From positions 1 through 21,156 of IMG/VR virus record IMGVR_UViG_3300032820_002479: a stretch of DNA of 21,156 bases. One strand, 5' to 3'. This document shows, piece by piece, positions 6,382-19,631 of this stretch; the first letter of the stretch is position 1, and each line of letters starts with the position of its first letter. The notes beneath the pieces are model-generated. The model did not search any database. It was not told the DNA's origin and saw only the letters and a list, made by a program, of their open reading frames with translations. This DNA comes from a virus. The position numbers were made by a program, and so were the translations under genes.

Positions 6382-6768
6382 ATGAATTACGGGAAGCTCC
6401 AGCGAGACATCAGCAGGTTTCGTGACTCCAAGAGTTGCGCTCTAGTGGCTGTGTGTGCACTTACGAAGAAGCCATACGAGGAAGTCTATGACGACTTCCG
6501 CGACCATGGCAGGAAGCGCGGAAAACCAACTCCGACATGGATGACGCGCCAAATACTCGCGCAGTACGGGTATACCTTGCTGCCCATGATCCGGATTCCA
6601 AAAAGTGTAAACCAATGCGAGACAAAGCTCGCTAAGTCCGGGAGGTACTTGATCCAAATACGAGGCCATATACTCGCGTGCGTCAATGGAAGGGTCGAAG
6701 ACTGGACAAGAGGCAGGAAGCATAGACCGATTAAAATTTATCGAGTAGTAAAAAAAAGGAGAACGTAA
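6382..6768 (+). CDS. Small papain-like (C39-like) cysteine peptidase-like protein
   Basis: A 128-aa protein with a possible Cys-His-Asp triad in papain-fold order: C19 at the start of a helix (DSKSCALVAVCALT), H96 in a strand (YLIQIRGHILACVNG) and D107 (VEDW). The N-terminal helix plus a hairpin carrying His resembles small C39-like proteins in phages. It has no signal peptide and a very basic C-terminus (KKRRT), so it would act in the cytoplasm, perhaps near nucleic acid. An AAAGGAAAG site lies about 5 nt before the ATG. Its stop TAA shares one base with the helicase ATG, so the two are co-translated. Substrate unknown; targets could be host proteins, virion proteins or a peptide. An inactive, structural member of the fold is possible. 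Confidence 0.6.
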   Translation: MNYGKLQRDISRFRDSKSCALVAVCALTKKPYEEVYDDFRDHGRKRGKPTPTWMTRQILAQYGYTLLPMIRIPKSVNQCETKLAKSGRYLIQIRGHILACVNGRVEDWTRGRKHRPIKIYRVVKKRRT

Positions 6769-8556: not shown

Positions 8557-10661
8557 TTTGTTTTAAACCGTATCTTAGCATCTTCTCCAGAGTAGATAGC
8601 ACAATTGGGGTTTGATGGTCCGGGAAAGATTTCCGTTCTCCAGGGGATACTAACCCACCCCGAAAAGTAATCTTCAGGATCTATTGGAAGATCTACTATA
8701 TTCTCTGCTTCCCAAATTGCGCTGGTATTGAAGGAGGCAGGAATTGTCACAGCTATCCTAACAGTTAAAGATCCTTCATTGTTTACAAATCGCGCATACA
8801 CCTGTGGGTCCCAGGAGTTAGATGCATTCGTCCATGTTAGATGCCGATCCGTATAATAAAGGTAACCGTACTGGGGATCTGCGTGAGACACTCTTAGTAT
8901 ACGTGTTCCGCGAAGAGAGTTAAGATAATCATAACAGGGTGGAGCAGTATATTCAGGGGGCCTTTCAGTAAAAATACTTTCTCCATCAATTTCTATTTCA
9001 AACTCCCAGGGAGCTAATGATCTGGCTGTTTCTGGAGGAGTTATGTCAGCATTTATTTCGTCAGAAAATATGTCACTGGCTAGGTTACGAGGATAGGGTA
9101 TCCCGGTACACCCTTCATACTCATTAGTATTTAATTGTCCTGATATGGTCTGAAACGTTACTCTACTTCCTCCATGAGTTGGGCCAAGACCAACACCACA
9201 CTTAGTTCCTGGCGGTTTATCGTCATAGTAGGCAAAGAAAACTTGACCTGAAGATCCTATAACATCGGGGAGTGTGATACTAGGAGCTGATGCATGTCCT
9301 TTATTTATAGTCACATAGCTCGTATTTAGCTTCGCAAAGTCTTGGTCCTCCCATCTATTGGAGAATTTTAACTCTCTTAGAATAGTATCTGTGCCTTCTA
9401 CTCTTTTAGCAAAACGGTATCTATAATCTCGGTAAGTACGAGGGCCTAAGACTGGGTGAGGCACATCATAATAGATTCTTTCTAGTTTTTTTTCAAAGTA
9501 GTTGTAATTGTTTGAGTCTTTATAACCCCAGATAGTTCTTATCTCGTTTCCTGGAGTGGAATGATATACTTCCTGCCTACTACTCCCTATGTACTGACCA
9601 TTAGCCATACCAGTAGTAGGCAGGCTGTCTCTGGTTATCAACAGTGCTCCTGGGTCAGCGCAGGTTAAACTGGAAGTTCTGACATGGTAAAATGGAGGTT
9701 CGGTATCTTGTTCTCCTAAACCTGCCCAAGTACCAGATATAGGATCTACGCGAGGAGGAGTTATAGTAAACGGACCGATGTATCCTTCATTTACGCACCC
9801 AAGGCATACCTCACAATTTTTAAGCGTCCCTGAATACTGTGCGACATCCTCAACCTCTGAACCCGCGAAATCGTATTGGTGACGGGGAAAATATGCACTC
9901 CAACCTTCATGCCAGTTTGACCAACCATAGAATTGTTGTACTTCAACCCCGTTTAAGTTAGCTAGGTAGTCTGATATTCCTATCATTGGTCTAGGAACCA
10001 CGCGGAGCCCTCCACCTGTATCTGCGATATACGAGCAATCCAAACCAGAAGTTAAATCAAAATCCAAATCGTTTGGGCCTCTAGTAATGGATATATTTAC
10101 ATAGCGGGAGTCTGCTCTCTCAAGTTCGTAACGAGCGGTTAGAGTATCATACCGTCTTGTACACCAAGTTAACCAAAAGAATTCTCCAACATTAACTGCT
10201 CCAGTTAGTGTGAAGTCTCCTATTACCTCATACTCCCACCCTCCCAACGTCCATCGGTTACTGATTAAATTTATCAGTAGACCACCACCACCATCAGCTA
10301 TCTTGACGGCTACATTTTGTTTCTCAGAGGGGTGACCTAGCACAATCCAATCAGAATCAGATAGCAGTCTTATATAGGCTTTGTTAATTCCGCGTCGTAG
10401 GTACTGTGGACTACTATACCAGGAAGCCTCTTCGGTTCGTATTAGTTCCCCGTGGGTTAGAACAGCACCAGCAGACATAGCTTTAGCAGCACCGTCTTGA
10501 ATAAAGAATCCTTTTGTACCAGCTCTATGCCCCGCATAGTAGAAAGTATTGGTAACTGGGAGATTCTCTGGATGATCTTTATCTCTAGAGAAGTCATGCG
10601 CAAAATCAAGACATTTAAGCCTTTTACAAGGAGAACAACAAGGATACCAAGAGGGTGCCAT
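8553..10661 (-). CDS. Large Cys-rich-N-terminus tail/virion structural protein
   Basis: About 702 aa, no enzyme motif. The N-terminus carries a tight cysteine cluster (CCSPCKRLKC, about residues 8-17), with more Cys pairs further on (CEVCLGC around 280-290). The rest looks beta-rich with many Trp, Tyr and Gly and repeated short strands, as in tail-tip, fibre or receptor-binding proteins. I chose the ATG at 10659-10661 because it forms TAATG with the upstream stop and has GGTGG about 7 nt upstream; an ATG 8 codons earlier (10685) is also in frame. It is downstream of the hub-like gene and coupled to the small Cys protein, so it is probably a distal tail component. The cysteine cluster could bind metal or cross-link subunits. 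Exact role unknown. Confidence 0.7.
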   Translation of the reverse strand: MAPSWYPCCSPCKRLKCLDFAHDFSRDKDHPENLPVTNTFYYAGHRAGTKGFFIQDGAAKAMSAGAVLTHGELIRTEEASWYSSPQYLRRGINKAYIRLLSDSDWIVLGHPSEKQNVAVKIADGGGGLLINLISNRWTLGGWEYEVIGDFTLTGAVNVGEFFWLTWCTRRYDTLTARYELERADSRYVNISITRGPNDLDFDLTSGLDCSYIADTGGGLRVVPRPMIGISDYLANLNGVEVQQFYGWSNWHEGWSAYFPRHQYDFAGSEVEDVAQYSGTLKNCEVCLGCVNEGYIGPFTITPPRVDPISGTWAGLGEQDTEPPFYHVRTSSLTCADPGALLITRDSLPTTGMANGQYIGSSRQEVYHSTPGNEIRTIWGYKDSNNYNYFEKKLERIYYDVPHPVLGPRTYRDYRYRFAKRVEGTDTILRELKFSNRWEDQDFAKLNTSYVTINKGHASAPSITLPDVIGSSGQVFFAYYDDKPPGTKCGVGLGPTHGGSRVTFQTISGQLNTNEYEGCTGIPYPRNLASDIFSDEINADITPPETARSLAPWEFEIEIDGESIFTERPPEYTAPPCYDYLNSLRGTRILRVSHADPQYGYLYYTDRHLTWTNASNSWDPQVYARFVNNEGSLTVRIAVTIPASFNTSAIWEAENIVDLPIDPEDYFSGWVSIPWRTEIFPGPSNPNCAIYSGEDAKIRFKTK

Positions 10662-12746: not shown

Positions 12747-14003
12747 TTACGCAGCCTGAGCAGCGGGTTCAGGCTTTGTGGGTGGATTCTTTTGGCTAGT
12801 AGGAACTTGATTATTTTGCTTCTCAAAGTTCTTTTCGGAGGTACTTACCGGTTGTGGTTCTCCTCCTGGACCTATAGCCATAATCTCACCAGCTATCTTT
12901 AGTAAACTAAAGGGGATAATCTCATACCTAGGGTCGGGAAAAGATAGCTTGGCCACAGGTCGTAAGATCTGAGTGTCGAAGTCAGATATCAACCATTGGA
13001 GAACTTCCTGGAGAGTAGAGAAAAATGCCATCTGTGGTATGGCCCTGCCAGTGGAGGAGCCGAAACCCTCACTACCTGATGATTCAACGACTTCCGGAGG
13101 TATGCCCATACCTTCCAGAATTTCTTCTCTGAGACTTACCCCATACTCCCCTAGACCAGAGGGTACGTCATTAGCTCTAGGAGGTTCGTATTCCCATGCC
13201 CTAGAGCCATCTGCGGTCGTCATATTCGGAAATGCTATGACCCCGCCAGTACGTTTCTTCTCTATCATCTCACGGGCTAGGTCTTTGTTAGAAATTACCG
13301 TACCGTCGTTGGTCCTGGTGATGCCTGGAGGGTGGTACATCACTCCCCCCTCGTAGGCATTCTTATAAAACCACAGTCGTCTGATGTCCCTGTAGCCACC
13401 GTCAGACCATTGCTCCCACCAGGGCACAAAGGAACCAAAAAGTCGAGAAAGACCGTACCAAGGATTTCTCTCGCGCTGATGGACATGGAGAAACGCTTTA
13501 GGACCACCAACAAAGACACGTTGGCGAGAACGGAAATCTTTCCCGGAAGTGAATTTAGAATTACGGACTGTGATCCCTTGCAAACGACCACGACTAGTAA
13601 CTACGTTTATGTCTGGGGGGTCTAAGTCACGGAGAGTATCAAACATGATACGCCCCTCATCCACCTTGTAGATTACTTCTGAACCAGAGTATCCCCACTC
13701 TACAGCTTTCAGTGCACGTACAGCGCTAGTTCTCCAGAACCGTTCAATAGATCGAACTAGGTACTTCTTTAACTCCTCGTCTTCTGTCTTTACGAAGAAG
13801 CGTGCGTTAGAAATCAATGGACCTTTTATCAACCAAAGACCAAAAGTAACACGAGGGTCCGTAAGCATCTCACGAACATGTACTCGTGAAAAGAACGGAC
13901 GATGCTTAAATCCCGCAGAGATAAAACCTGAATGGCTAGAATGAGGAGTGTACTCTGCGGTACGGGGTTCACTTAAGAGGTCTTCCCCTGTGAACGTTGC
14001 CAT
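12747..14003 (-). CDS. Portal protein (DUF935/Mu gp29-like)
   Basis: A 418-aa portal, the dodecameric channel through which DNA is packaged and ejected. Family features in order: LTDPRVTFGLWLIKGPL (about 47-63) matching the 'DP.v...L..r' helix, ALKAVEWGYSGSEVIY (about 96-111), a beta section with FVGGPKAFLHVHQRERNPWYGLSRLFGSFVPWWEQW (about 162-198), KNAYEGGVMYHPPG (about 212-225), and the C-terminal helix region with GIPPEVVESSGSEGFGSS. The C-terminus is Pro/Gln/Ala-rich and disordered-looking. ATG at 14001-14003 has GAGGAG 8 nt upstream and overlaps the end of the -1 frame chaperone reading frame by 31 nt. In known phages portal is usually beside terminase and capsid; here it follows the tail genes. 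Confidence 0.82.
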   Translation of the reverse strand: MATFTGEDLLSEPRTAEYTPHSSHSGFISAGFKHRPFFSRVHVREMLTDPRVTFGLWLIKGPLISNARFFVKTEDEELKKYLVRSIERFWRTSAVRALKAVEWGYSGSEVIYKVDEGRIMFDTLRDLDPPDINVVTSRGRLQGITVRNSKFTSGKDFRSRQRVFVGGPKAFLHVHQRERNPWYGLSRLFGSFVPWWEQWSDGGYRDIRRLWFYKNAYEGGVMYHPPGITRTNDGTVISNKDLAREMIEKKRTGGVIAFPNMTTADGSRAWEYEPPRANDVPSGLGEYGVSLREEILEGMGIPPEVVESSGSEGFGSSTGRAIPQMAFFSTLQEVLQWLISDFDTQILRPVAKLSFPDPRYEIIPFSLLKIAGEIMAIGPGGEPQPVSTSEKNFEKQNNQVPTSQKNPPTKPEPAAQAA

Positions 14004-14517
14004 TTCATTTTCTCCTCTGCTAATACCCTATTAGCATGCGCGGTTTCTGCACTATTAACATCGTCGGTAAGGCTCAATACCAAAGAGTATAGCTTATCCG
14101 CTGTCATTTCCGAATCAACAGATCTAGCATTCCATTCCCGTAAAGCTCGAACGTAAGGCTTCAAAAAATGTAAAGCTGATCTTTCTTCCTTGGTTAAGTC
14201 TCGGAAGGGGCTTCCGTAGTAGACGATGAACTCCGCAAGGTTTCTATGCTTTTTTTTAGCAGTTGCCCAACCGAATCAATCTTTTGGGAAAGGAGGTATG
14301 CCATAGAAGGGGACACCTCTTTCTTAAAAGTTTCGCTAAGTACCTTGGCAAAATTGATGATGAAAAACCTTTGGTCTTGTCTTTTACCCATGTTCAACCC
14401 TTCTTGGGCTTCTGCCATGAGTAAATCCAGCGACACTACATCGTCTTCCAGAATCATGTCTCCATTTTCTTTTACCAGTCGGAGGGTCTGGGTTTCGGGG
14501 ACTACAACGTCGTTCAT
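13973..14517 (-). CDS. GT-type tail assembly chaperone made by -1 ribosomal frameshift (fusion product)
   Basis: The -1 frame is open without interruption from the A8 run at 14250-14257 to the stop at 13973. A frameshift after K89 of the short protein would give about 181 aa: 89 shared residues plus 92 from the -1 frame. The new part starts KHRNLAEFIVYYGSPF, then DLTKEERSALHFLKPYVRALREWNARS, a helical text similar in style to T domains of lambda-like gpGT chaperones. The -1 frame has a TGA just upstream of the slip (14276-14278), and no ATG with a ribosome site, so it cannot easily be made alone; the only in-frame start is a TTG at 14164. Role by analogy: coats the tape measure and recruits tube subunits. 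A sequencing indel in a plain gene is the main alternative. Confidence 0.72.
14194..14517 (-). CDS. G-type tail assembly chaperone (zero-frame product)
   Basis: A 107-aa protein, mainly helical after residue 25 (VVSLDLLMAEAQEG, RFFIINFAKVLSETF, SPSMAYLLSQKIDSVGQLLKK), ending in a Ser/Thr-rich tail (SSSSTTEAPSET) that looks like non-conserved read-through past the slip site. That is the pattern of lambda gpG-like proteins, where the short form is made most of the time. ATG at 14515-14517 overlaps the TGA of the upstream gene (ATGA) and has GGAG 8 nt upstream. It shares its first 89 codons with the fusion product. Tail assembly role is by analogy; sequence similarity cannot be checked here. Confidence 0.72.
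   Translation of the reverse strand: MNDVVVPETQTLRLVKENGDMILEDDVVSLDLLMAEAQEGLNMGKRQDQRFFIINFAKVLSETFKKEVSPSMAYLLSQKIDSVGQLLKKSIETLRSSSSTTEAPSET
14251..14257 (-). promoter_or_regulatory. Probable -1 programmed frameshift site (A AAA AAA)
   Basis: On the minus strand the zero frame reads CTA AAA AAA AGC, so the heptamer A AAA AAA (14257 down to 14251) is in slippery phase. The usable window runs from the -1 frame TGA (14276-14278) to the zero-frame TAA (14194-14196), and this heptamer lies in it. A 6-bp hairpin CGGAAG/CTTCCG with a CCC loop (14202-14216) follows, but 34 nt downstream, farther than usual stimulators. No strong Shine-Dalgarno-like stimulator is seen upstream. Confidence 0.7.
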
Positions 14518-16313
14518 TGAAATTTCTCCACATCTGCCCCTGTTTGTACAGCAATATGCAAGTCAGTAAGTGGCGCTGATTCGAGTCGGTATTCTATCCT
14601 CCATTTGAGTCTATGTATAGAACACTTTCCTGATTTAAGTATTCTATCTCTTGCGTACTTTTTTATTGGAATTGCTTTAACACCCCCTACTGAGGCTAGA
14701 CCTGGAGGGTCAATTTTATACCCCAACCTAACTGCCCAACCGTATAGGACTACCTTATACCTCGGAGAAGTTCGTACTTGGGATTCTTCTACTTCTCCTC
14801 CGGTATCGGTAGTGAAAGTAAAACCTATAGTCCTACTAGGGTCCGGGTCTATATTTTCTGTATCAACTAGATCTTCCGCTGATTTATCTACCAGCGGCTT
14901 ATGAAAGATTACATCCGTATCCTCAGTGACATCCATCCAACTGTGATAGTCTATCCAACTAGCTTCTGGAGGAGGGCAAGGCGTTTCAAAAACTGCGGTC
15001 AATCTCTGATCAGAAACCGTAGTGGGATCAGATCCTTTAACAGGTAAGTTATTATCGCAGAGCGTTATTTTTATGTCATCGGCGGTGGTATGACCTAGTT
15101 GAGCATAACCTCTCGCGTTATGCACTTGGTTATATACGGACGCATTCCATTCTACCCAAGTTGTACTCAAAGGCTGAAACAGGCCACTCAATCCTTGAGA
15201 ACCAAGCATCTGATCAGGTGATCCATAAAGTAGAAAACCAACAGAAAAGGATACGCTTCTACCAAATACTTCTTCGGTAAGACTTAGATTAAGCAGAAGG
15301 AAAGACTTAAGTTTTGTTTCTTTCTCCCCGGTTGTGGTGTATGTGCTGTACAAGGCGTGACGTAATCTATCGGTTACTATAGCTGTGATAGCCCACCAAG
15401 CTAATTCCTTAGGGTATCCTGGTGCCACTTCTACAGTACCAAAAATAGTAGAATTCCATTTAACGAATCCTCCAGTACCAGTAATTTCACCGACAGGCAT
15501 TAAAGATGTTTTAAGGGAATGACTAACATTCATGTCTATCATTCCGGGGTGGTATGCGTTGTCCGATGGAATTTCTCTATCCAGAATAGTAAAGGTGAGA
15601 ACACTCCTATCTTTACTTAAGTTCAATAAAGGATGACTACGAGCGTATCCAGCAAGTACTGGAACCCTCTCCAATATATGGCGGTACCTATCTGCCGTAT
15701 CGGTTAATTTATTGTTTGTGCCCCAGCTAACAGGTATTTCAAATTCTCCAATAATTCTACGCTCAGTCATACCAGATTCATTAATTGCCCATTCCACCTC
15801 GTACTCAAAGTTCATTAACGAATGTGCGTATTGGGGTGTCCCGACTTCCTTCTTGCACTCCGGTATTGAAGTTTCACAAGCCCATACAATACGAACAGCT
15901 TTGTTTGATCCTATAGGTTCCCACGCAAGTATTCTTGGTTTAGGGCCAAACTTTATATCCCTTACCCCCCCTGCGGATTCATTTATTTCAAAATCACCAA
16001 ACCCCTGGGCCGTAAAAGATAAAAACTGCCCAGGTTCAGAAAGCCTTTTTCTAATGTCCTCTATATTATCTTTAACGATAGAATTAGGACTGCCCGCATC
16101 TTCATTAAGTATAGGATCGGACCCTACTACGACCGTAGTTATTTCTATATCGTAGGTTACGTATTTAACTATTCGCTCCGCACTATCCATTACCATACGA
16201 GCTGAAATCTTAGCGTTTATAAGATTGGGAAAAGTATACCCATTGTATGATACTACTCCCACCTGAAAGGCATTAGGAGGTGTGCCCTTGTCTCTACTAG
16301 TTGTAATGGCCAT
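14514..16313 (-). CDS. Large phage tail structural protein, unassigned
   Basis: A 599-aa protein, not recognised by motif. It is beta-rich throughout (for example VGVVSYNGYTFPNLINAKISARMVMD at the N-terminus, WAITAIVTDRLRHALYSTY near 330-350, and YKVVLYGWAVRLGYKIDP near the C-terminus). It has no signal peptide, transmembrane helix or enzyme motif. ATG at 16311-16313 overlaps the stop of the tape-measure-like gene by one base (TAATG) and has no clear Shine-Dalgarno, so coupling is likely. In standard tail clusters the gene after the tape measure encodes a distal tail or baseplate protein, which is the best guess here. It is followed by the G/GT pair with a 4-nt overlap. Confidence 0.65.
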   Translation of the reverse strand: MAITTSRDKGTPPNAFQVGVVSYNGYTFPNLINAKISARMVMDSAERIVKYVTYDIEITTVVVGSDPILNEDAGSPNSIVKDNIEDIRKRLSEPGQFLSFTAQGFGDFEINESAGGVRDIKFGPKPRILAWEPIGSNKAVRIVWACETSIPECKKEVGTPQYAHSLMNFEYEVEWAINESGMTERRIIGEFEIPVSWGTNNKLTDTADRYRHILERVPVLAGYARSHPLLNLSKDRSVLTFTILDREIPSDNAYHPGMIDMNVSHSLKTSLMPVGEITGTGGFVKWNSTIFGTVEVAPGYPKELAWWAITAIVTDRLRHALYSTYTTTGEKETKLKSFLLLNLSLTEEVFGRSVSFSVGFLLYGSPDQMLGSQGLSGLFQPLSTTWVEWNASVYNQVHNARGYAQLGHTTADDIKITLCDNNLPVKGSDPTTVSDQRLTAVFETPCPPPEASWIDYHSWMDVTEDTDVIFHKPLVDKSAEDLVDTENIDPDPSRTIGFTFTTDTGGEVEESQVRTSPRYKVVLYGWAVRLGYKIDPPGLASVGGVKAIPIKKYARDRILKSGKCSIHRLKWRIEYRLESAPLTDLHIAVQTGADVEKFQ

Positions 16314-17572
16314 TAGTTAAAAACACCCCTAACCCCAGTAGGACGTGGTCTAGCCTCACCAAGTAAAGCGTTGGGATCTAAGTCTTCACCGGTAATGAAG
16401 TCCGTAAATTCTTTTTGGGCCTCCATATTCCCATCCGTAGCTTCCTCAGCTTCCCCTCTCTCCCACCACCTTAGTACCCTCCCAAGAAGACGTAGACTGG
16501 AATTACTGTTGTAAAATAGAGTCTTCAAAAGCTCCGGATTATCGCCTATAAGGTTTATTAAAGGTTCAATAGCCCGCAATATGGCACTTATGTCCTCTGT
16601 TATTTGTGTAGCAAGAGGAAGTATTCCCTTAACTAGACTAGTTTCTATCTTAATTAAAGCGCGGTCTACCCCTGACCGTGCGCCCTGATACTCTGACAAA
16701 GGACCAGATAATTCTTGTGCTTGCTCCATTCTAGCAAACATCTCGTTGATCTCTCTTCCAACAACAGCCATAGCCAACTCCGCAGAAAAAGCAGAACCAG
16801 TTTCTGACAAATCTTGAAGCATGCTATCTACGGCGCGTATAGTATCGCCTAACGTTTTAAAGGCAACACCAAGCGTGGCAGCAGTGAGTGCGACAGCTAT
16901 ACCCGCAGGGCCAAATAGCTTCGTTACGATAGGAACCACAGCACCAAAGGCTTTTCCAAAATTACCGCCAAAAGTTCCTCCGCCATCTCCACCTCCGCCT
17001 CCGCCTCCACCACCAGGAGGAGGACTGATGGGAACCGCACCGCCAGGAGGAGGAATAACGCCACCAGAACCGGAAGATCCAGAACTGCCTGGAGGTGGTG
17101 GTGGGGGTGTAGAAGAAGGGGGAGGAGGTACGTTACCGAACCCATACGAAACGGGAGGAGCTTCAGAATATCCGAAGGGAGGTCCAGCATCTGTGACAGT
17201 TGTTCTACCTACCCCAGACTTACTCCCCATGGCGTACTTAGCGCCCCAGTGATCGGCTCCACCAGCAGAAAAACGACCGGCGTAGTTGAACGCGCCACTA
17301 GGAAGATCTGAAGCTTCTCCTGCAATATTTAGCGCAGATCCAATAGCTTTTATACCTTGGGTAAAAGAATTAGCTATAAGATCGGTCTTAGCTAGAACTT
17401 TACCAGAGGTATATCCAGGAGCTTGTTGGCTAGACCTACGGTCCTGTTGATTCCACTGTTGGGTGGTAAGCCCATATTTCGGAGAAGAACCCCCTGCGGA
17501 TTCTGATTGGGCAGCGGAAGGTGGTTGCTCCTCCCGGAAAACTACAGTCAGGGTTTGGTTTTCGTTTGCCAC
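16313..17572 (-). CDS. Short tape-measure-like tail protein with poly-Pro/poly-Gly linker
   Basis: A 419-aa protein. Residues 1-148 are polar with low complexity. Residues 149-203 are a Pro/Gly/Ser linker with runs of six Pro and nine Gly. Residues about 205-240 (KAFGAVVPIVTKLFGPAGIAVALTAATLGVAF) are strongly hydrophobic, as in tape measure proteins that insert in the host membrane. The remainder is helical (ELAMAVVGREINEMFARMEQAQEL, ATQITEDISAILRAIEPLINLI). It follows the tail tube gene directly. If it is the tape measure, its length implies a short tail, roughly 60 nm at 0.15 nm per residue, less if the linker does not extend. The start is GTG at 17570-17572 without a clear ribosome site. 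A tail-tip or membrane-acting minor tail protein is the alternative. Confidence 0.6.
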   Translation of the reverse strand: MANENQTLTVVFREEQPPSAAQSESAGGSSPKYGLTTQQWNQQDRRSSQQAPGYTSGKVLAKTDLIANSFTQGIKAIGSALNIAGEASDLPSGAFNYAGRFSAGGADHWGAKYAMGSKSGVGRTTVTDAGPPFGYSEAPPVSYGFGNVPPPPSSTPPPPPPGSSGSSGSGGVIPPPGGAVPISPPPGGGGGGGGGDGGGTFGGNFGKAFGAVVPIVTKLFGPAGIAVALTAATLGVAFKTLGDTIRAVDSMLQDLSETGSAFSAELAMAVVGREINEMFARMEQAQELSGPLSEYQGARSGVDRALIKIETSLVKGILPLATQITEDISAILRAIEPLINLIGDNPELLKTLFYNSNSSLRLLGRVLRWWERGEAEEATDGNMEAQKEFTDFITGEDLDPNALLGEARPRPTGVRGVFN

Positions 17573-17610: not shown

Positions 17611-18168
17611 TCACGCATCATTAGGAGTTACTTCGTACCAACAAGCTTTATTTAGTCCGTCTGGTATATAAGGTAGCAATTGAAACCTAAGAGGAATTTT
17701 TCTATGTCGATTGCTAAAATTTATACGAGTAGAAAAACCGGGGGCAAGCATTGCTACGCTTGCTGTCAGCACTGCCGGTTTATCTTCGGCGGTCGTACTA
17801 GTGTCAGCCGTCAGTATCAATTCAGTCGGACCGCCTTCACCAGCCATCTGACTCCATTGATTGCCTACATCTCCTACGTAACCGCCCTGTATATCATAAG
17901 CCTTCTCAGTGGTACTTTCACTAAACATAGTCAGAGCTTTAAGGGTACCAATAGACCACTCAACGCAAACAAAGCTTAAAAAGCAATTACCCCCTCTGTA
18001 AACAACATCCTGTACAGTATCCGCTCCATTATCTCCGACCAGTTCTTCACCGAAACGCACAGTCTCTAATTCGTAACCATCCTCTGTAGCCCCAATATAA
18101 TTCTCCTCGTGGCCAAACGAACACACATAACGACCGGCTATAAACGTGGAAGCAAAACTAATAGCCAT
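17611..18168 (-). CDS. Major tail tube protein
   Basis: A 185-aa beta-rich protein of the size usual for tail tube subunits. The N-terminal strand MAISFASTFIAGRYVCSFG, the loop with NYIGATEDGYEL, and a final long strand pair (KIPLRFQLLPY near 160-170) fit the tube fold. It would form stacked hexameric rings around the tape measure. ATG at 18166-18168 shares one base with the stop of the preceding basic protein. A 38-nt gap to the tape-measure-like gene leaves no room for a chaperone gene at the canonical place. Identification rests on size, fold style and gene order. Confidence 0.65.
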   Translation of the reverse strand: MAISFASTFIAGRYVCSFGHEENYIGATEDGYELETVRFGEELVGDNGADTVQDVVYRGGNCFLSFVCVEWSIGTLKALTMFSESTTEKAYDIQGGYVGDVGNQWSQMAGEGGPTELILTADTSTTAEDKPAVLTASVAMLAPGFSTRINFSNRHRKIPLRFQLLPYIPDGLNKACWYEVTPNDA

Positions 18169-18378: not shown

Positions 18379-18927
18379 TCACACCATATTGGTTGTGGAC
18401 TGATAACGAGTCGCTTGATCAAAACGTACTTCCATGACGTAAGCTACGTCTGAATCTGGACGTTCCGACCCTAACCAAGTTCCATCCTCTAAGCGGGGTT
18501 GGGGATCAGTCCCCGCCCAACGAAAGTATTCTACGATCCGATCCGTACCAGTCATAGCATTACCAGCGCTCTCGCCTATTGTAGTGTTCTGGTGAACAGA
18601 AGTCATTATCGTTCTACAAAGGCTATCAAGGCTCAAAGTAGCTTCTATATAGAGATTTAATCCTGCGGACTCCCTGGGTATTGCGGACTGCCGCATAGTC
18701 ACGGTGACTCCCATCCCATAGACCTCCTCGATTCCAGAGTTAGGATCGAAGTTCCCAGGCCTCCAGGAAGTACCGTAAATGGCAGCAAACCACTTACCCA
18801 TGGTGGGTTTAGGCCGGGGATCAGGCATGATATCAATGTGATAATCACTCAAAGTCTCAGTTAGGAGAGTACCGATATCCGCAGTCAGCTTGGTTTTAGT
18901 CTCTACCAGGAGCTTGGCTAGGCTCAT
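18379..18927 (-). CDS. Probable tail terminator / head-tail joining protein
   Basis: A 182-aa alpha/beta protein. The N-terminal helix (SLAKLLVETKTKLTADIGTLLTETLSDY) leads to a strand pair (IDIMPDPRP, KWFAAIYGTSW), a central strand set with VYGMGVTVTMRQSA, a helix SLDSLCRTIMTSV and a C-terminal strand VAYVMEVRFDQATRYQ. This matches tail terminator/minor-tail proteins that cap the tube at the neck. The order connector, GpG/gp10-like, this gene, tube is the usual one. ATG at 18925-18927 overlaps the upstream TGA (ATGA), with GGGGAAG upstream. Function comes from gene order and fold style rather than a signature. Confidence 0.6.
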   Translation of the reverse strand: MSLAKLLVETKTKLTADIGTLLTETLSDYHIDIMPDPRPKPTMGKWFAAIYGTSWRPGNFDPNSGIEEVYGMGVTVTMRQSAIPRESAGLNLYIEATLSLDSLCRTIMTSVHQNTTIGESAGNAMTGTDRIVEYFRWAGTDPQPRLEDGTWLGSERPDSDVAYVMEVRFDQATRYQSTTNMV

Positions 18928-19631
18928 TTTCGCTTCCCCCGAGCTAATGCCTTCGCAGAGTCCTCCAGAGCGTCCCTAACAGCCGATCTGAACCAGGGTG
19001 ATATATCCGCTGGCCAGAACTTTCGGACCTTATGGAGCTTCTTAGCGTATGGTACGGAGGTACCAATCTCCATGGAATTCTTAGATGGCTTAAATACTTG
19101 ATCCTGAGGGGGGGAATAAGATCCGGACAGCAATCGACCTGGACGCAGAGATTTCTCTAGACGGTGGGTATCTATCAGAATAGGAACCTTACGGTCTCCG
19201 TACTTGCTGAGTCTGGTTTCCGCCCCATCCCGTTTCAAAATGCCCCAAGCTATAGATGCCGCTTGAGCAGAAGCAGCTTGTATCGACATGTGCTGAGATA
19301 ACCGGGTGAGATTGCTGGAGAAAATTCCTTTCCACTTTTGATTTTGTAAGGGTGTAAGGAGTCCTCGCCCCGTTCGACCGCGCCTACTAAAGGCGAGAGA
19401 CCCCCGTCCCCGGATTTTGCGTGCCGCAATGGTTGACCTTTTCAGAGGTTTCCATTGCAGCCCTTGGTCGTCTGCGTTCCCCTTTGATTTGATAATAAAA
19501 GCTTTGTGAATCCTCTGGAACAATCCTTGAGCAAGTTTAGCTGAGAACCTGGAGTGTAAAGGTCCACTAAGGCTCTTCATAGAACTTTTCAGTTCTAAGA
19601 CCGCTCTCTTATTAAGGGTTACTGTAGCCAC
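18924..19631 (-). CDS. Phage virion morphogenesis / tail completion protein (Mu GpG, HK97 gp10-like)
   Basis: A 235-aa basic protein. Diagnostic-looking text is LQWKPLKRSTIAARK (about 58-72), then VPILIDTHRLEKSLRPG (about 149-165), GSYSPPQDQVF (about 170-180) and IGTSVPYAKKLH (about 188-199), all in the order seen in GpG/gpS/gp10-type tail completion proteins (the W.PL..STI..R, ILxDTGxL..S and YA..H elements). It would join the neck and tail. It is longer than usual because of a basic insert around 73-148 (SRRGRTGRGLLTP and following). The start is GTG at 19629-19631, 15 nt after the upstream stop, with a weak ribosome site. Confidence 0.75.
   Translation of the reverse strand: MATVTLNKRAVLELKSSMKSLSGPLHSRFSAKLAQGLFQRIHKAFIIKSKGNADDQGLQWKPLKRSTIAARKIRGRGSLAFSRRGRTGRGLLTPLQNQKWKGIFSSNLTRLSQHMSIQAASAQAASIAWGILKRDGAETRLSKYGDRKVPILIDTHRLEKSLRPGRLLSGSYSPPQDQVFKPSKNSMEIGTSVPYAKKLHKVRKFWPADISPWFRSAVRDALEDSAKALARGKRK

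Follow-up and report, generated by a model that had tools for sequence, protein, structure and literature searches.

What does the stretch of overlapping reading frames directly upstream of the portal gene in this viral DNA encode: one protein interrupted by error, or two proteins made from one message, and if two, what do they do? We analysed a complete IMG/VR record of 21,156 bases (the window), on whose minus strand an earlier note, made from the letters alone, had placed a programmed -1 frameshift encoding a pair of tail chaperones of the G/GT type, perhaps of a divergent family.

Reading frames of the pair

The zero-frame ORF (14194..14517, minus strand) begins with an ATG overlapping the stop codon of the 599-aa gene that precedes it, and encodes a short, G-like product of 107 aa. 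Its first part, an N domain of 89 aa common to both products (14251..14517), is followed by an A8 slippery run (14250..14257), where the heptamer A_AAA_AAA lies in phase at 14257-14251 and the codons around the slip read CTA AAA AAA AGC. The zero-frame tail beyond the slip (14197..14250) is the Ser/Thr-rich SIETLRSSSSTTEAPSET, and this tail is variable or missing among relatives. The -1 frame ORF (13973..14275, minus strand) is closed upstream by a TGA at 14278-14276 and is open through the slip for 92 codons, to a stop at 13975-13973 that falls within the start of the portal gene; a -1 slip thus gives a fusion of 89 + 92 = 181 aa. Within the window, the -1 frame has no ATG and its sole listed start is a TTG at 14164; the -1 ORFs of some relatives contain starts upstream of the slip. 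The boundaries given in the earlier note were all confirmed (zero-frame end, heptamer, -1 closure and stop, and the 92 open codons), as were its remarks that the -1 frame lacks its own ATG and that the short form ends in a Ser/Thr-rich sequence.

From this layout, a single region of mRNA would yield two proteins. The majority of ribosomes would stay in the zero frame and make the 107-aa protein, that is, the N domain with a short, disposable tail; a minority would slip back one base at the in-phase heptamer, here A_AAA_AAA, and make the 181-aa fusion, in which the N domain is joined to a helical C domain.

Two further A8 runs occur in the window. One (6750-6757, plus strand) also contains an in-phase A_AAA_AAA, near the stop of a 128-aa ORF, and a UvrD-like helicase gene (start 6768) lies in the -1 frame relative to that ORF and is open through the run. 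We rejected this run as another -1 site, as no such run precedes eight relatives of the helicase; it probably belongs simply to the Shine-Dalgarno stretch AAAAAAAAGGAG. The other (9486-9493, minus strand) lies within a 710-aa ORF (10685-8553). The window also carries recombination and repair genes between 2905 and 5674 on the minus strand, encoding a Sak4-like ATPase (AAA_24), a PD-(D/E)XK exonuclease and a uracil-DNA glycosylase (PF03167, E 1e-19), and a weak match to a Holliday junction resolvase falls in the same interval.

Relatives, slippery sites and the mechanism of recoding

A direct search of viral contigs with the 181-aa fusion found no relative, and neither did a portal-profile search of genome contigs. 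Relatives were reached only through the downstream gene for a Mu-type portal protein (PF06074, E 4.6e-8; 12747..14003, minus strand), which led to 47 viral loci; two of these, L032 and L042, contain the pair incompletely and were left out of the count, leaving 45 readable across the junction. In all 45, the portal gene is immediately preceded by the N-domain and C-domain ORFs, the second displaced by -1 relative to the first, and both domains can be aligned across the junction. Window and relatives together hold 38 distinct portal sequences, so that 37 or more other, distinct phage genomes share the arrangement. The earlier note had proposed aligning homologous loci, and had named relatives with a single uninterrupted frame as evidence that would count against its reading: none was found among the 45, the -1 relation is exact in every one, and the slippery site is kept, though not always as an A-run. 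Judged by this recurrence in sequence, the pair is real, far beyond chance.

Slip types were scored in 35 representatives, the window included. Thirty have A-runs (A9 in 21, A8 in 7 and A7 in 2), and each A-run contains an in-phase heptamer; the other five have no A-run of 7 or more and carry instead G_GGA_AAC (L009 and L015, in both cases with a TGA immediately after), A_AAT_TTT (L018), T_TTT_TTC (L021) or G_GGT_TTT (L029), all in phase and all at the end of the N domain. Thus an in-phase X_XXY_YYZ heptamer is found where both frames are open in 35 of 35 representatives. Parsimony on the portal tree gives four changes of slip type, and branches with good support require two or more changes between A-runs and other sites. 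For a single locus, the chance of meeting an in-phase heptamer at some point of the permitted stretch is not very small (shuffle P 0.03 to 0.39), and the weight therefore rests on recurrence at the same place. The pair's strand carries 35 A-runs of 8 or more in the 34 relatives among the representatives; 27 of them stand exactly at the slip, and eight are spread over the remainder of 403 kb. A scan for stimulators, covering pseudoknot-free downstream structures as well as internal Shine-Dalgarno sites, revealed no consistent or common element (mean z -0.6); individual strong hairpins and SD-like sites were seen in a few loci.

Selection on the -1 frame was assessed beyond the zero-frame stop, where coding is in the -1 frame only: here every locus has one or more stops in the zero frame, and all loci but one have a stop in the third frame. 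Five closely related pairs of loci differ there chiefly at third positions, and the codons with a single change are synonymous in 93 cases vs 22 nonsynonymous (L012/L013, 10 and 1; L019/L020, 23 and 4; L011/L014, 23 and 9; L035/L036, 15 and 0; L004/L006, 22 and 8). By these counts, the -1 frame is evolving under purifying selection.

These data bear on three accounts of the junction. The simplest, that a single frame has been broken by a homopolymer error or has decayed, draws on the fact that the site is a homopolymer, where assemblies err; the same -1 relation, however, is found across many metagenomes (the 38 distinct portal sequences), some of the heptamers are of mixed bases, and purifying selection acts on the -1 part. 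We give this account a negligible probability, and the recurrence of the -1 relation, together with the non-A-run heptamers at the same place, excludes an indel artefact for the family. Alternatively, RNA polymerase might slip on the A8 or A9 run and produce mRNAs with one extra A, either instead of or together with slipping by the ribosome. The abundance of runs of exactly A9 (21/35) or A8 (7/35), beyond the length that a ribosome needs, and the occurrence of A9 runs in all three codon phases are what such slippage would lead one to expect. Against it, the five representatives without an A-run use a canonical tandem heptamer, in phase, at the corresponding position, both A7 runs are in the phase required for ribosomal slipping, and no A-run lacks the in-phase heptamer. 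Polymerase slippage leaves the tandem heptamers unexplained and we consider it unlikely as the general mechanism, but it may add to the A9 cases. Ribosomal -1 frameshifting is by far the best mechanism, and is strongly supported by (i) the conserved -1 relation, (ii) the interchangeable X_XXY_YYZ heptamers, and (iii) the purifying selection on the -1 frame. That the recoding is -1 frameshifting appears nearly certain on these comparisons, which bear out the programmed -1 frameshift first proposed for this locus.

Domains, setting and putative function of the two products

The two domains were folded separately with AlphaFold2, using 35 sequences. The N domain is predicted to comprise two strands and three helices in the order beta-beta-alpha-alpha-alpha (pLDDT 94.7, pTM 0.83), and the C domain five helices (pLDDT 91.6, pTM 0.62), in keeping with the earlier description of the fusion part as structured-looking and helical. 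Neither domain had a significant match in PHROGs (a search that the earlier note had suggested), Pfam, PDB sequences or structures, or sequenced phages, nor did the N domain in BFVD; Foldseek and VIA-align likewise gave nothing above background. The N domain's weak matches in BFVD include two entries named “tail assembly chaperone”, but at E 0.35 and 0.83 these do not count as evidence. These results support the view that the family is a divergent one, and known chaperone pairs themselves resemble one another poorly in sequence (PMC5009743).

We compared gene maps of 16-20 kb from seven relatives with the window, where the following genes, all on the minus strand, precede the pair: a tail completion or Neck1-like protein (18924..19631; phrog_26, E 3e-4), a tail-tube-like protein of 185 aa (family F3, 17611..18168), recognised by place and look only, a tape-measure-like protein of 419 aa (family F4, 16313..17572; weak match to TMP_2, E 0.1), and the 599-aa gene without an assigned function (family F5, 14514..16313), which stands directly upstream of the pair and is kept there in the mapped relatives. 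The window and six of the relatives share the order neck, terminator-like, tube-like, tape-measure-like, F5 (600-840 aa), pair, portal; only the pair and the portal gene were recognised in the seventh (L054). Upstream, relatives have recognisable genes for terminase and major capsid protein. In the window, L049-L053 and L055, the portal gene is downstream of the tail genes and a long way from the terminase and capsid genes, which is not the usual gene order of tailed phages. In three relatives (L049, L052 and L053), a small ORF that is rich in Cys and resembles a zinc finger (family F12) separates the terminator-like gene from the tube-like one.

Two-product frameshifting in the tail module is the mark of tail chaperones and of the G/GT system (PMC5009743). 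That feature, together with our seeing no other gene of the module that fills the role, makes it likely, by analogy, that the pair are tail assembly chaperones resembling G/GT. The pair does not have the usual position, between the tail tube and tape-measure genes, in either the window or the six mapped relatives, as far as the weak labels allow this to be read. In the window the gap between these two genes is 38 nt, which leaves no room for a chaperone gene, and in the mapped relatives the interval mostly has no space for another gene, although an ORF of 103 aa fits into it in L053. Both labels, tube and tape measure, were assigned by position, appearance and weak matches (TMP_2, E 0.1; phrog_167, E 0.13), and the emptiness of the usual slot is accordingly just as uncertain.

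In layout and setting, the pair is like lambda gpG/gpGT in having a short zero-frame product and a longer -1 fusion, with the slip near the end of the short gene, within the tail module; it differs in its position next to the portal gene, beyond the tape measure and F5, and in having slip sites that are mostly A8 or A9. HK97 gp13 (PDB 2ob9) is likewise a small chaperone with a -1 frameshifted extension, but its gene keeps the slot between the major tail subunit and the tape measure, and a profile comparison indicated no similarity to the pair (probability 0.7%). Mu gp41, an annotated tail assembly chaperone, likewise comes from a small chaperone-type gene in the tail module, of a phage whose portal type the pair's phages share; that gene lies between tail tube and tape measure, and a profile comparison again indicated no similarity to the pair. 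The earlier assignment to the G/GT type is plausible as regards layout, size and tail-module setting. It gains no support from similarity, as no tail chaperone matched the pair significantly in sequence or fold, nor from position, as the pair lies outside the presumed tube/tape-measure slot. Because the position differs and no kinship was found, we describe the pair as likely to work in the manner of G/GT, without classing it as a member.

If the analogy with lambda is followed, the N domain would coat the tape-measure protein, the rarer fusion would recruit the tail-tube protein via its C domain, and both products would leave before the virion is completed. These roles are inferred from the layout, the tail-module setting and the lack of another candidate in the usual slot.

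The frameshift may be real and yet serve another end, in that the products would act in the assembly of the head or portal, or with the F5 protein, and the shift may also set the dose of portal through translational coupling. The pair always abuts the portal start: the -1 stop lies from 32 nt inside the portal gene to 43 nt before it (-32 to +43 nt) in 35 of 35 representatives, with portal starts picked by rule, and the two are joined as ATGA or TAATG in nine; the overlap in the window is 31 nt. The zero-frame stop, by the same measurement, is 112-305 nt upstream of the portal start, and F5 stands between the pair and the tape-measure-like gene. Frameshifted ribosomes, terminating at the portal start codon, could therefore aid translation of the portal, and such coupling is possible. 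(The portal ORF of some relatives has about double the length, 844-873 aa in L009, L010 and L015 and about 1,000 aa in L048/L054, as if fused to a second protein.) Close packing of genes is, however, ordinary in phages. Two-product frameshifting in the tail module marks tail chaperones (PMC5009743), moreover, and no other such pair was seen in the slot where one would usually lie. On balance, we think a head or portal role rather unlikely. More specifically, a non-chaperone pair might govern assembly of the head-tail junction, the shift setting the amount of the long form and, through the -1 end on the portal start codon, that of the portal; this we consider more doubtful still. The full explanation, a frameshift-made pair with a G/GT-like chaperone role, is in our judgement reasonably probable when both parts are taken jointly.

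Significance of the family

With this pair, a deep and previously unlabelled family from uncultivated phages joins the protein pairs made by programmed frameshifting. Its interchangeable slippery sites form a natural series with which the determinants of slipping at bacterial sites could be tested. If the products are tail chaperones, such a pair can stand away from the tape-measure gene, and annotation rules based on position would miss it.
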